DNA of 26,972 nucleotides from the IMG/VR virus record IMGVR_UViG_3300048589_000224, positions 1 through 26,972 of that record. The stretch is one strand, 5' to 3'. Below are positions 17,818 to 25,869 of the stretch, one piece after another. Every line of letters starts with the position of its first letter. Position 1 is the stretch's first letter. The stretch is from a virus. A program made the translations under genes and the position numbers. The notes below the pieces were generated by a model. It was not told where the DNA came from. It was given only the letters and a program-made list of their open reading frames with translations, and ran no database searches.

Positions 17818-18289
17818 CGCGAACCTGACGCGCATGGAATTCGACGGCACGGTCGACCATCGCGACGGCCAGCAATTCGTCGACGGCCGAGGCTTTGCGG
17901 GCGACCGCTTCGAACGAACGCACAGGATCGAGCCGCACGGCTTTGCCAGTTGGCCGGTCAAGGGCGGCATAGGCGTAACGCTCGGCACGCGCGGCCGCCG
18001 CGATGCGGCTTACGTTTTCGGCGGCGAGAACCCGAAGCTGCGGCCGCAGGTCGGCATGGGCGGGACGGCAATCTATGACCACGCAGGAAACATCATTTCG
18101 GTGGTGATGGCTGAATTGCGCATAGTTCATTCGGCAAAGGTGACGATCGTCGCGCCCGAAATCGTGCTTGACGGCCTCGTCAAGCTCGGCGGCGAGGATG
18201 CCGACCGACCGGCTTCCGCCGAGGGCACGGTCGACAGCGCGGGGCACACCGAGACCGGCAATTTGGCGACAAGGGTGTTGGTGAAGTAA
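17810..18289 (+). CDS. Baseplate spike protein (Mu gp45-like)
   Basis: Trimeric membrane-piercing tip of the tail. Family pattern: FERTHRIEPHGFASWPVKGG near residue 40, GTAIYDHAGNIISVVMAELR near residue 85, and the beta-helix-like SAKVTIVAPEIVLDGLVKLG. At 159 aa it is of normal length for gp45. ATG 17810 is favoured over ATG 17807 because GAGG ends 6 bases before it. I do not see the iron-binding HXH motif known from P2-type spikes; a single GHTETG occurs near the C-terminus. Stop and next start overlap as TAATG. Confidence 0.88.
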   Translation: MFDANLTRMEFDGTVDHRDGQQFVDGRGFAGDRFERTHRIEPHGFASWPVKGGIGVTLGTRGRRDAAYVFGGENPKLRPQVGMGGTAIYDHAGNIISVVMAELRIVHSAKVTIVAPEIVLDGLVKLGGEDADRPASAEGTVDSAGHTETGNLATRVLVK

Positions 18290-18795
18290 TGCGGATTGTG
18301 TCCATTGTCGGCCCGGCCGAGCCGCTGCTCGATCCCGATCTTATTTGGGACGGCCGCGCCGGCGACCTTGCGACGACCGGCCTTGTCGACCCGCTCAACC
18401 CCGGCGGCTTGCGCAACGGCGCGGCTATCGAGACGGCGGTGCTGATCTGCCTGATGACGGATCGACGGGTTGATCCGACCGAACTCCTTGATGGCGACGT
18501 CAACAGGGGATGGCCGGGCGACGCTTTCGACATGGCCGACGGCGAGACGCCGCTCGGCTCCAAGCTTTGGCTGTTGCGGCGCCGCGCCTTGACGGCGGAC
18601 ATCGAGATATTGGCGCAGGATTATGCGCGCGAGGCGCTGCAAACGCTGGTCGACCAGGGCGTTTTCGTGCGTGTCGACGTGACGGCCGAGGCGCGGCGCG
18701 ACCTGTCCATGCTGGACATTTCGATTTCCGGTTATGGCCGGGACGGCGGGCGCTCCTACGAGCAGCGCTATGCCGTTTTGTGGGAACAGGTCTAA
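18289..18795 (+). CDS. Baseplate wedge protein (Mu gp46-like)
   Basis: Wedge component, gp25-like, of the contractile tail baseplate. The 168-residue protein has the gp46 marks: an N-terminal LLDPDLIWDGRAGDL, the middle AAIETAVLICLMTDRRVDPT, NRGWPGDAFDMADGETPLGS followed by KLWLLRRRALT (the most characteristic part), and a helical C-terminus. It overlaps the spike gene by one base and precedes the gp47-like gene by 16 bases, as in Mu. Confidence 0.92.
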   Translation: MRIVSIVGPAEPLLDPDLIWDGRAGDLATTGLVDPLNPGGLRNGAAIETAVLICLMTDRRVDPTELLDGDVNRGWPGDAFDMADGETPLGSKLWLLRRRALTADIEILAQDYAREALQTLVDQGVFVRVDVTAEARRDLSMLDISISGYGRDGGRSYEQRYAVLWEQV

Positions 18796-23221: not shown

Positions 23222-23285
23222 CATCCATCAGCGCGGACAATGTGCCGCCCTGCGCAATCTACCTCATAAAATCTGGAGTGCTTCA

Positions 23286-24077
23286 ATGCCCCGTCTCGTT
23301 CATGACTGGCGCCGCGTGGTGCTGGTGTCGATAAGCTTTTGGATGCAGGTTGCCGGCCTGCTTGCCCTGATCCTGCCGGAAGCCCGCTTCCGGTGGACCG
23401 GTCAGGACAGCGACCCTTATTTTTCGTGGTGGCTCGGCGTGCTGTTGCTGCTCGCCGGCATTGTCGGGCGGGTTTACCCGCAAAGCACGTCGCGCTGGCG
23501 GGAATGGCTTCGCCTTGCCGCTGTTGCCGGCCTCGTCGTCATCCTGGCGCTGATCCTCGCAGCACCTTCCAACGCCGCCACGCCCGGCGCTGTTGCGCCT
23601 GACGCCTATGGTTCGACCGAGGCCGAGGCGCTGCGCATCGCGGTGCCGTTCATCGCCAAGGCCGAAGGCAAGAGCAACGTCGCCTATCTCGACACCATCG
23701 CCGTGCCGCCGGTGTGGACGATCGGATACGGGTCGACCGAGGGCGTTCGCCCCGGCATGGTGATAACCGACCGGCAGGCGCTCGACCTACTGCAGGTCGA
23801 CGTCGCCAAGCACCGAACCGGCCTGCGTCGCTATTTCACGCCTGCGACGCTGACCTTACGCCTGCCACCTCCCCGCGACGCGGCCTATACCTCGACCGCC
23901 TACAATTGCGGCGTGACGGCGATCGGCAACAGCACGGCGACGCGAAGGCTCAACAGCGGCGACATTGCCGGCGGATGCGAGGCCTTGACGTGGTGGAACA
24001 AGGCTGGCGGGCGCGTGGTGCGCGGCCTTTTCGAGCGCCGCAAGGGCGAACGCGCGCTTTGCCTGCAGGGGCTTTAG
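23286..24077 (+). CDS. Holin-like membrane domain fused to GH24 endolysin
   Basis: A 263-residue lysis protein in two parts. Residues 1-65 start with PRLVHDWRRV and have two membrane segments (about 11-31 and 48-64), an arrangement like small DUF7940-type phage holins. A third hydrophobic segment (76-93) ends with PSNAATPG, resembling a signal peptidase site or a signal-anchor. From about 108 on there is a T4-lysozyme-like muramidase: KAEGKSNVAYLDTIAVPPVW and TIGYGST give catalytic E127, D136 and T145, with the E-D spacing of T4 lysozyme and three extra residues before the threonine. ATG 23286 has GGAG upstream. Separate holins are usual, so the fusion is noteworthy. Confidence 0.85.
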   Translation: MPRLVHDWRRVVLVSISFWMQVAGLLALILPEARFRWTGQDSDPYFSWWLGVLLLLAGIVGRVYPQSTSRWREWLRLAAVAGLVVILALILAAPSNAATPGAVAPDAYGSTEAEALRIAVPFIAKAEGKSNVAYLDTIAVPPVWTIGYGSTEGVRPGMVITDRQALDLLQVDVAKHRTGLRRYFTPATLTLRLPPPRDAAYTSTAYNCGVTAIGNSTATRRLNSGDIAGGCEALTWWNKAGGRVVRGLFERRKGERALCLQGL

Positions 24078-24078
24078 C

Positions 24079-24198
24079 ATGGGGGATCCGCGTTTCACTC
24101 TAAAGGTGTTTCTGTTCGGCGCCGCCGAGGTTGCCGCCGGTGTCGTTGCCGGCGGGCTTATCCTTGGCGTGATCGCCTTTGCGGCGCTCATGTCATGA
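24079..24198 (+). CDS. 39-aa single-span membrane peptide
   Basis: Small gene between the endolysin and spanin genes, starting at ATG 24079 one base after the endolysin stop, with AGGGG 8 bases upstream, and ending in an ATGA overlap with the next gene. It encodes MGDPRFTLKVFLFGAAEVAA and then a hydrophobic run to the end (GVVAGGLILGVIAFAALMS), i.e. one membrane helix. Good ribosome-binding site and perfect coupling suggest it is real. Its place in the lysis cassette suggests an antiholin, pinholin or holin helper, but sequence alone cannot choose. Confidence 0.6.
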   Translation: MGDPRFTLKVFLFGAAEVAAGVVAGGLILGVIAFAALMS

Positions 24199-24644
24199 CG
24201 GCTGCGATTTTCGCTTTTGCAAAGTGGGCTTGGGGCTTCATCCGGCCGGTTCTGACATTCGGCATCACCTTGCCGGTGTGGTTCTTCCTCGCGGCCGGCC
24301 TTTGGCTCGCCATCGACCGCGCCTCGGCGGTGCGAACCGCCGTCAATGACGCCGTCGTCAAGCTTGTCGCCGGCGCGCAGATCGAGGGATTGCAGGCGAC
24401 GGTCCTCGAATATCAACGCATCAACGCATGGCAGGCCGGCAAGGCGGACGAGGCCAGCCGCATCGCCGACGACGAACGGGCGGCGCGCGCCGACCTTTCC
24501 GCCAAACTCACCGTTACCGACGAAGAAAGAAAGGCGCTGGCCGATGACCTGCAGGCTGTCCGCAACCATTACAAAAGCCTGCCTGCCGGCGCTGGTCGTT
24601 GCGTTGTCGACCAGTTTCTTTTTGACAGGCTGCGCAACAAATAA
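24195..24644 (+). CDS. Inner-membrane spanin (Rz-like)
   Basis: A 149-residue protein with one long hydrophobic N-terminal region (about 12-41, ending FFLAAGLWLAIDR) and then a helical periplasmic domain rich in A, E, K and R (QIEGLQATVLEYQRINAWQA, RADLSAKLTVTDEERKALAD), the Rz type. Rz subunits bind a partner lipoprotein to fuse inner and outer membranes at the last step of lysis. The partner gene starts inside this one in another frame (24544), as in lambda. C-terminal cysteine at GRCVVDQF may form intermolecular bonds. Confidence 0.8.
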   Translation: MTAAIFAFAKWAWGFIRPVLTFGITLPVWFFLAAGLWLAIDRASAVRTAVNDAVVKLVAGAQIEGLQATVLEYQRINAWQAGKADEASRIADDERAARADLSAKLTVTDEERKALADDLQAVRNHYKSLPAGAGRCVVDQFLFDRLRNK

Positions 24645-24921
24645 AGCGCAACGCTCGCTCGCCGAGGCCTACGCCGACAAGGCCAGGGCCGACGCGGCGC
24701 AAGTGGCGATGCGCGCGGCCGACAAGGCGATCGAGGACGCGCGGCGCATGCCCGACCTGCCGGCCGAGTGCCGGCGCACATGGCGAAGCGGCACGCAGCT
24801 CGACGAGGATGCCGGCGCGTCAAACCTCAAATATGACCAGGCGCTCGGCGACGCCAACAAGCAGATCACATGGTGCGCCGGCTGGTACGATCGCACGCAA
24901 GCGGGACGGGAACCGAAATAG
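24544..24921 (+). CDS. Outer-membrane spanin lipoprotein (Rz1-like)
   Basis: Starts at ATG 24544, 101 bases inside the Rz-like gene in another frame. The first 30 residues are a lipoprotein signal: a hydrophobic CLPALVVALSTSFFLTGC with the lipobox LTGC and lipid-attachment site Cys30. The remainder (125 aa in total) is a helical, charged domain (AQRSLAEAYADKARADAAQV) and ends with WCAGWYDRTQAGREPK. It is longer than lambda Rz1 and lacks a strong proline cluster, but nested location and lipobox are the defining marks. The frame remains open upstream of 24544, where it reads as a shadow. Confidence 0.82.
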   Translation: MTCRLSATITKACLPALVVALSTSFFLTGCATNKAQRSLAEAYADKARADAAQVAMRAADKAIEDARRMPDLPAECRRTWRSGTQLDEDAGASNLKYDQALGDANKQITWCAGWYDRTQAGREPK

Positions 24922-24922
24922 C

Positions 24923-25309
24923 ATGACCATCGACACAACCGTTACGCTCGGCAACCTACTGACCATCGGTGCCCTGATCGTAGGTGCAATCTCGGCGTGG
25001 TTCTTCCTGCGCGGCGACGTTACGGCGGCAAAGTCGGGCATGGCCGATTTGAGGGGCCGCTACGCCGATCTTTTCGCCAGCTATGAGGTCCTGTCGAGAC
25101 GGGTCGAGGAAGTGCGAGCCAAGAGCGCGCATGAGCTTGCCGAATACAAACTCACCGTGGCGCACGATTACGCGACAAACGGGGCGATCAAGGAGGTCGA
25201 GGAACGTGTCGTCGAGGCCATCAACCGCCTGGGCGATCGCTTCGACATGTATTTCGCGCCGCGCTCGCAAGGGGGTGGGCCGCGCCGCCGCGGCGGATCC
25301 TCGTCGTGA
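24923..25309 (+). CDS. Membrane-anchored coiled-coil protein (DUF2730-like?)
   Basis: A 128-residue protein with a single membrane helix at about residues 9-30 (NLLTIGALIVGAISAWFFLR) followed by a coiled coil (ADLRGRYADLFASYEVLSRR, EVEERVVEAINRLGDRFDMY) and a basic, glycine-rich tail. ATG 24923 is 1 base after the spanin stop. The layout resembles small membrane/coiled-coil proteins in Mu-like phages (such as DUF2730), and its position in the lysis cassette could make it a holin or lysis regulator. No motif decides. Its stop overlaps the next gene (TGATG). Confidence 0.65.
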   Translation: MTIDTTVTLGNLLTIGALIVGAISAWFFLRGDVTAAKSGMADLRGRYADLFASYEVLSRRVEEVRAKSAHELAEYKLTVAHDYATNGAIKEVEERVVEAINRLGDRFDMYFAPRSQGGGPRRRGGSSS

Positions 25310-25869
25310 TGCTGCCGATTATCGGGCTGACCGGCGCGCGGCACGTCGGCAAGTCGACCGCCGCCGACCATCTGGTCGAGGCCTTCGGTTTCGTGCGTGT
25401 GCATCCGCTTGCCGGCGGCAAGGTGGCGGCCGCCGCCTATTTCGAGCATATGGGTGCTGCGCCCGACGAGGCGCGGCGCATGGCCGACGGCGACCTGCGC
25501 GATGTACCCTCACCGCTTTTGCCCGGCAACGCGACGCCTCGCCTTTTCCTTGAGCGTTTCGGGCGCTTCATGGGCGTCGACATGGGGTGCGACTGGACAC
25601 TCGGCGCCGAGATCGCGCACGCCTGGCGGCACACGCCCGGCCGTCCGCTGGTCGTGGAATCCGTCGTCTATGAGGATCAGGCCATCCGCCAGGTGGGCGG
25701 GCTGATCGTGCGCATCGAACGGCCGGGGCATGCCGGACCTGCGGGCATCTGCACCGACGCGGTGCAAGCCGCGCTTGCCGTCGACGCAAGGATCGTCAAC
25801 GACGGCGATCTGGCGAAGCTGCGCCGCTCGGTCGGGCATATTGCGCAGGCCATGACTGGCGGGCGCTAG
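25309..25869 (+). CDS. P-loop kinase, deoxynucleoside-monophosphate kinase-like
   Basis: Predicted 186-residue phage nucleotide kinase of the T4 gp1-like type, which converts dNMPs to dNDPs for replication. A Walker A motif is at residues 9-17 (GARHVGKST). The fold continues with HLVEAFGFVRVHPLAGGKVA and ATPRLFLERFGRFMGVDMGC, then a substrate-lid-like region and VVESVVYEDQAIRQVGGLIV. ATG 25309 overlaps the previous stop (TGATG); a GTG at 25306 would give one more residue. Nucleotide kinases are unusual directly after lysis genes. The specific substrate is inference; the P-loop is certain. Confidence 0.8.
   Translation: MLPIIGLTGARHVGKSTAADHLVEAFGFVRVHPLAGGKVAAAAYFEHMGAAPDEARRMADGDLRDVPSPLLPGNATPRLFLERFGRFMGVDMGCDWTLGAEIAHAWRHTPGRPLVVESVVYEDQAIRQVGGLIVRIERPGHAGPAGICTDAVQAALAVDARIVNDGDLAKLRRSVGHIAQAMTGGR

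Follow-up and report, generated by a model that had tools for sequence, protein, structure and literature searches.

Holins and endolysins are normally encoded by separate genes, and the usual assumption is that their relative amounts and their timing are adjusted independently of each other. Several exported endolysins have been described. The SAR endolysins R21 (phage 21) and P1 Lyz have a GH24 fold and leave the cytoplasm through Sec by means of one weakly hydrophobic N-terminal membrane segment, and each is served by a separate holin. Lys44 of Oenococcus phage fOg44 and the lactococcal LysP335 carry an N-terminal signal peptide with a signal peptidase I site; as long as the membrane remains energised, the activity of Lys44 is withheld (PMC6116005, PMC9371310). 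In phage Mu, a non-holin accessory membrane protein governs release of the exported endolysin, and release is blocked by basic residues on the cytoplasmic side (PMC9239132). A natural one-chain fusion of holin and endolysin, that of TpeE, was reported from six isolates of Clostridium sporogenes; it involves a one-span holin in a Gram-positive host, and the accessible part of that paper describes no internal signal peptide (PMC9527704). Stand-alone genes of the DUF7940/PHROG 1356 type (in phiM6 of Sinorhizobium, RHph_N2 of Rhizobium, and Mesorhizobium phage Cp1R7A-A1) encode two membrane spans with W8 and R62-x3-Q66, lie directly 5' of a lysozyme or endolysin gene, and end in an overlap with its start.

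Here we describe a gene in which that frame does not end but continues into the enzyme. Its closest named counterpart is in Labrenzia phage vB_LagS-V1 (PP058680.1), which has the same fused architecture with 62% identity over the full length; the record labels the product only "putative endolysin" and does not mention the fusion, and our literature search found no paper on this phage. In the literature that we searched, a library outside which most subscription papers fall, we found no account of this architecture, and the one natural holin-endolysin fusion that we found is that of TpeE (PMC9527704). The fusion described below is real and widespread; a natural holin-endolysin fusion was already known, and this one differs from it in holin family, type of host, and junction.

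A holin-like domain and a muramidase in one chain

The window, by which we mean the whole 26,972-base stretch analysed, is the full length of a virus contig and represents a fragment of a contractile-tailed phage, with genes for a gpA-type terminase, lambda-type portal, sheath, baseplate J, and Mu-type gpP and gp48 upstream of the fused gene. Its host is likely a member of the Rhizobiales, judging from the closest relatives, which sit in Mesorhizobium contigs. The fused gene occupies 23286..24077 on the forward strand, with an ATG at 23286, a stop at 24075-24077, and a Shine-Dalgarno-like GGAG at 23275..23278, 7 bases 5' of the ATG. A sequence-only reading had described a single polypeptide in which three membrane segments precede a GH24 muramidase with E127, D136, and T145, and the open reading frame (263 codons), AlphaFold2 model, Pfam scan, and alignment all bear this out. 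In the AlphaFold2 model (66 aligned sequences; mean pLDDT, 88), long helices at residues 16-38, 44-63, and 70-92 form a block with pLDDT of about 78-94. The first two belong to a DUF7940/PHROG-1356-type holin-like domain (residues 1-66; 23286..23483, forward strand). The third follows a basic, predicted cytoplasmic loop in residues 67-97 (23484..23576, forward strand), a stretch that terminates in S95-N96-A97 and is likely an internal signal peptide. Residues 95-106 are predicted to be disordered (pLDDT <50), and the predicted start of the mature enzyme (residues 98-117; 23577..23636, forward strand) is a poorly conserved flexible linker.

The remainder of the chain (23637..24074, forward strand) is a GH24 muramidase domain of the T4/R21 type, modelled mostly at pLDDT >95. 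We assign it to GH24 from a PF00959 match at residues 125-255 (E value, 8.5e-30; 104 bits against a curated cut-off of 22.3) together with its E-D-T catalytic triad, which is almost invariant in the alignment (E127, 66/66; D136, 65/66; T145, 66/66). Its Foldseek neighbours are R21, the DLP12 endolysin, P1 Lyz, and prophage muramidases (3hde, 4zpu, 1xjt). Cys231 and Cys259 co-occur in 65 of the 66 aligned sequences, and Cys147 and Cys165 are both kept in 63 and both missing in the other 3; such pairing fits disulfides that would be made in the oxidising periplasm. The window is itself one of the three sequences in which the near-universal second pair is jointly lost (residues 147 and 165; 23724-23726 and 23778-23780), along with L026 and L031.

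Residues 3-66 span the entire DUF7940 model (PF25612, positions 1-63) at 17.7 bits, below the Pfam cut-off of 27, and we therefore treat the domain as a homologue of DUF7940 rather than as a formal member. Several relatives lie on the other side of that cut-off. Mesorhizobium tamadayense L027, from the same supported six-sequence clade as the window, scores just above it (27.3 bits). Other fused forms clear it by more (L007, 32.6; L010, 28.4; 39.7, 46.6, and 40.6 in a second fused clade), and stand-alone ones also exceed it (L009, 45.1; L016, 30.9). The PHROG 1356 "holin" profile matches stand-alone proteins of phiM6 (2.1e-12), RHph_Y52 (2.9e-8), and RHph_N2 (6.7e-8) as well as some fused forms (L152, 6.9e-7; L010, 4.3e-4). 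The domain keeps W19, P31, D41, P44, R62, and Q66 in 92-100% of sequences, whereas there is no such conservation in the third segment and linker. Fused and stand-alone forms have in common W8 and R62-x3-Q66, with P44 in most. The sequence-only reading had likened residues 1-65 to a holin; this homology, the two-helix architecture, and the position of stand-alone homologues, which precede and overlap the endolysin gene, agree with that view. No NCBIfam model was found for the domain, and our library, which holds few subscription papers, yielded no paper on DUF7940 and no member experimentally proven as a holin; to our knowledge there is no such member. The domain is too short and divergent for tblastn, so profile searches were needed: with the window's domain alone, tblastn against named phages matched only LagS-V1, and with the stand-alone L009 copy it matched none.

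Fused and split relatives

The fusion is common to 78 non-redundant sequences, the window included, carried by Labrenzia phage vB_LagS-V1, many Rhizobiales and Rhodobacterales prophages, bacterial isolates, and metagenome contigs; it defines a large fused family in phages of marine and soil alphaproteobacteria. The architecture had been thought uncommon from the sequence alone and instead proves to be broadly distributed, though among named phage records only 1 of 50,697 (LagS-V1) has a match over ≥80% of the protein. To classify loci we used two profiles derived from the ten relatives first collected. Across 156 sequences these gave 119 fused and 26 split loci, counts that include near-copies and some contigs cut at their ends; the N-terminal domain was strong in 108, or 78 once near-copies were removed.

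At the eight split loci examined, the stop of the holin-like gene overlaps the ATG of a separate, exported GH24 gene, the overlap being 4, 8, or 11 bases long; where the fused chain has helix 3, this second gene encodes an export segment of its own. The split pair occurs in the named phages RHph_N2, RHph_N1_10, phiM6, RHph_Y52, and Cp1R7A-A1, and in one named phage the stand-alone gene is annotated "putative holin." A few of the split calls (L066, L140) may be single-contig frameshifts. Six split loci (L009, L015, L016, L018, L019, L111) have conserved Gln-Gly codons (CAGGG/CAAGG) near the end of the holin-like gene, at the position expected for the Shine-Dalgarno sequence of the overlapping endolysin start. 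In a tree of the GH24 domain, fused and split forms are interleaved, with 11 changes of the fused label (shuffle mean, 20.3), at least 3 of them forced by well-supported branches; the tree is built from about 145 columns, leaves many forks open, and gives no direction of change between fused and split.

Membrane topology and the junction

The mean number of lysine and arginine residues over 77 sequences is 2.9 ahead of helix 1 and 3.1 in loop 2, against 0.8 in loop 1 and 1.1 following helix 3. By the positive-inside rule, this charge distribution gives a cytoplasmic N terminus and a periplasmic enzyme. A signal-peptidase-I-type site recurs in 17 of the 18 members of the window's clade. All 17 have Ala at −1 and one of A, S, V, and T at −3, which conforms to the classical rule for that peptidase, and share identical, gap-free spacing from a W-(L/M/V)-R motif to the −1 Ala. 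In the window, cleavage is predicted between A97 and A98 of S95-N96-A97-A98. The earlier suggestion of an AXA-type site near residue 97 thus survives in part: a third segment with a signal-peptidase-like site is there, but the motif is S-N-A rather than A-X-A.

A cleavage site throughout the family was considered and rejected: among all members with a long linker, a strict A-X-A close to where helix 3 ends occurs in 30 of 71, slightly more than the 23 expected from shuffles, and the signal is limited to certain clades. Elsewhere in the family the junctions include A-M-A-Q and A-L-A sites and proline-rich linkers with no site. L102 (2498-3310) has a lipobox LSGC at the end of its third segment (ALLSGC, then D), which suggests a lipoprotein endolysin held at the inner membrane. 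We also looked for an internal start that could yield a separate endolysin; the 78 sequences have no in-frame start with a Shine-Dalgarno-like sequence at a common position.

The junction also sets the window apart from SAR endolysins. Unlike the weakly hydrophobic N-terminal segment of R21 and P1 Lyz, helix 3 of the window is strongly hydrophobic (mean Kyte-Doolittle, 3.0) and internal, lying behind two more spans; it is separated from the catalytic Glu by a 33-residue linker and is followed by the cleavage-type site of its clade. The window's candidate signal peptidase I site recalls that of Lys44 and LysP335, but their signal peptide is N-terminal whereas this one would be internal, behind a holin-like hairpin. 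Six members (L010, L058, L070, L089, L106, L110) do have SAR-like junctions, with the catalytic Glu only 5-6 residues past the third segment. In these the third segment enters the catalytic helix, yet two more spans precede it.

A possible lysis precursor and competing readings

We propose, at a probability of about one in two, that the gene encodes a holin-endolysin precursor that is exported through Sec and cut by host signal peptidase I, its membrane part then triggering lysis. Sec would insert the chain into the membrane with a cytoplasmic N terminus. Helices 1 and 2 would form a DUF7940-type holin-like hairpin, and helix 3 would act as an internal signal peptide that delivers the muramidase to the periplasm. 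Host signal peptidase I would probably cleave after Ala97 in the window's clade, giving equal numbers of a membrane fragment (residues 1-97) and a free periplasmic muramidase, which would be restrained as long as the membrane stays energised. Once accumulated membrane fragments trigger, the muramidase would act, and the downstream spanin pair would complete lysis. A small depolarising lesion could be enough, with no need for large holes, because the enzyme would already have been exported by its own segment. Exported, energy-controlled endolysins have precedents in fOg44 Lys44, P1 Lyz, and R21, and a depolarising lesion suffices for phage 21 and fOg44 (PMC6116005).

The precursor model is built on the fusion itself, the homology, the charge bias, the conserved cleavage-type motif, the cysteine pairs, and the overlapping two-gene relatives. 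To these we add by inference actual cleavage, holin activity, timing, and energy-dependent restraint of the enzyme, and with them the idea that one gene may both time lysis and degrade the wall. Several observations weigh against it. The N-terminal domain scores below the Pfam cut-off, the cleavage motif is not family-wide, and six members are SAR-like; the 39-residue one-span product encoded downstream, or other small membrane proteins in LagS-V1, may be a separate holin; and the model gives no reason for the free muramidase to remain inactive between cleavage and triggering.

In an alternative that we consider unlikely though worth weighing, the N-terminal domain would be a mere anchor or insertion aid, the third segment would free the enzyme unless it stays membrane-bound, and lysis would be set off by the host or by a different small membrane gene. 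Such a gene would be at hand in the 39-codon open reading frame with one hydrophobic span directly 3' of the fused gene (24079..24198, forward strand), a possible accessory lysis protein, and this reading would also accommodate the six SAR-like junctions and the several relatives whose linker is long and rich in proline and lacks a clear cleavage motif. However, in L026, L028, L076, and L080 spanin-like genes follow the fused gene directly, and our scan shows no other small membrane gene. Conservation, too, makes residues 1-65 look unlike a generic anchor: the six N-domain residues held at 92-100% exceed an anchor's needs, and W8, R62, and Q66 are common to the stand-alone genes. Three other membrane proteins of LagS-V1 were scanned and matched no holin family, though a holin of another type may exist.

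Less probable again is that the DUF7940 domain acts in cis as an antiholin or releasin (compare Mu gp25), controlling the exit of the muramidase from the membrane without making a lesion of its own. Mu offers a precedent (PMC9239132), a basic loop precedes helix 3 here, and SAR-like members exist; but the Pfam scan of the protein returned only PF00959 and DUF7940 and no DUF2730, the mark of a Mu-type releasin, and stand-alone DUF7940 genes hold the usual place of a holin, 5' of the endolysin. The clostridial TpeE fusion was interpreted as a carrier whose holin part flips the folded enzyme through the membrane (PMC9527704). We give this reading very little weight here, since a signal-peptide-like third segment and positive-inside charges already account for export, and TpeE, one short span plus an amphipathic helix, is unlike the window's two-span domain of another family. 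A sequencing error joining two overlapping genes, conceivable in that a small indel would fuse the split relatives, can be dismissed given the identical fusion in the complete LagS-V1 genome, bacterial isolates, and many independent metagenome contigs.

If the precursor model holds, the family might be described as a lysis polyprotein, in which one gene fixes holin and endolysin at 1:1, host signal peptidase separates them, one translation product sets the time of lysis without a holin gene that is tuned on its own, and genes have been joined or split more than once; this broader claim is tentative, and we rate it slightly below even odds. A widespread family of single 1:1 precursors makes the assumption of independent tuning testable and offers a handle on the function of DUF7940. 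Its split, cleavable, lipobox, and SAR-like forms are a natural series on how endolysins are restrained before triggering, and a single gene may hold most of a phage's exit programme.

The spanin candidates of the window are an i-spanin-like open reading frame (24195..24644, forward strand), with an N-terminal span, a charged helical stretch, and a weak Rz-like match, and an o-spanin-like lipoprotein gene (24544..24921, forward strand; lipobox LTGC) that overlaps it out of frame in the manner of Rz/Rz1. A one-span open reading frame of similar size to the window's lies at the same place in L046 and L027; L026 has none, and its spanin-like genes follow directly. LagS-V1 (L161) likewise has an unannotated spanin-like pair right after its endolysin (PP058680.1, about 17821-18320), the i-spanin-like part of which seems to carry two spans. 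Past the lysis genes, the window encodes a deoxynucleoside monophosphate kinase-like protein (25306-25869; phrog_139, 1.4e-19).
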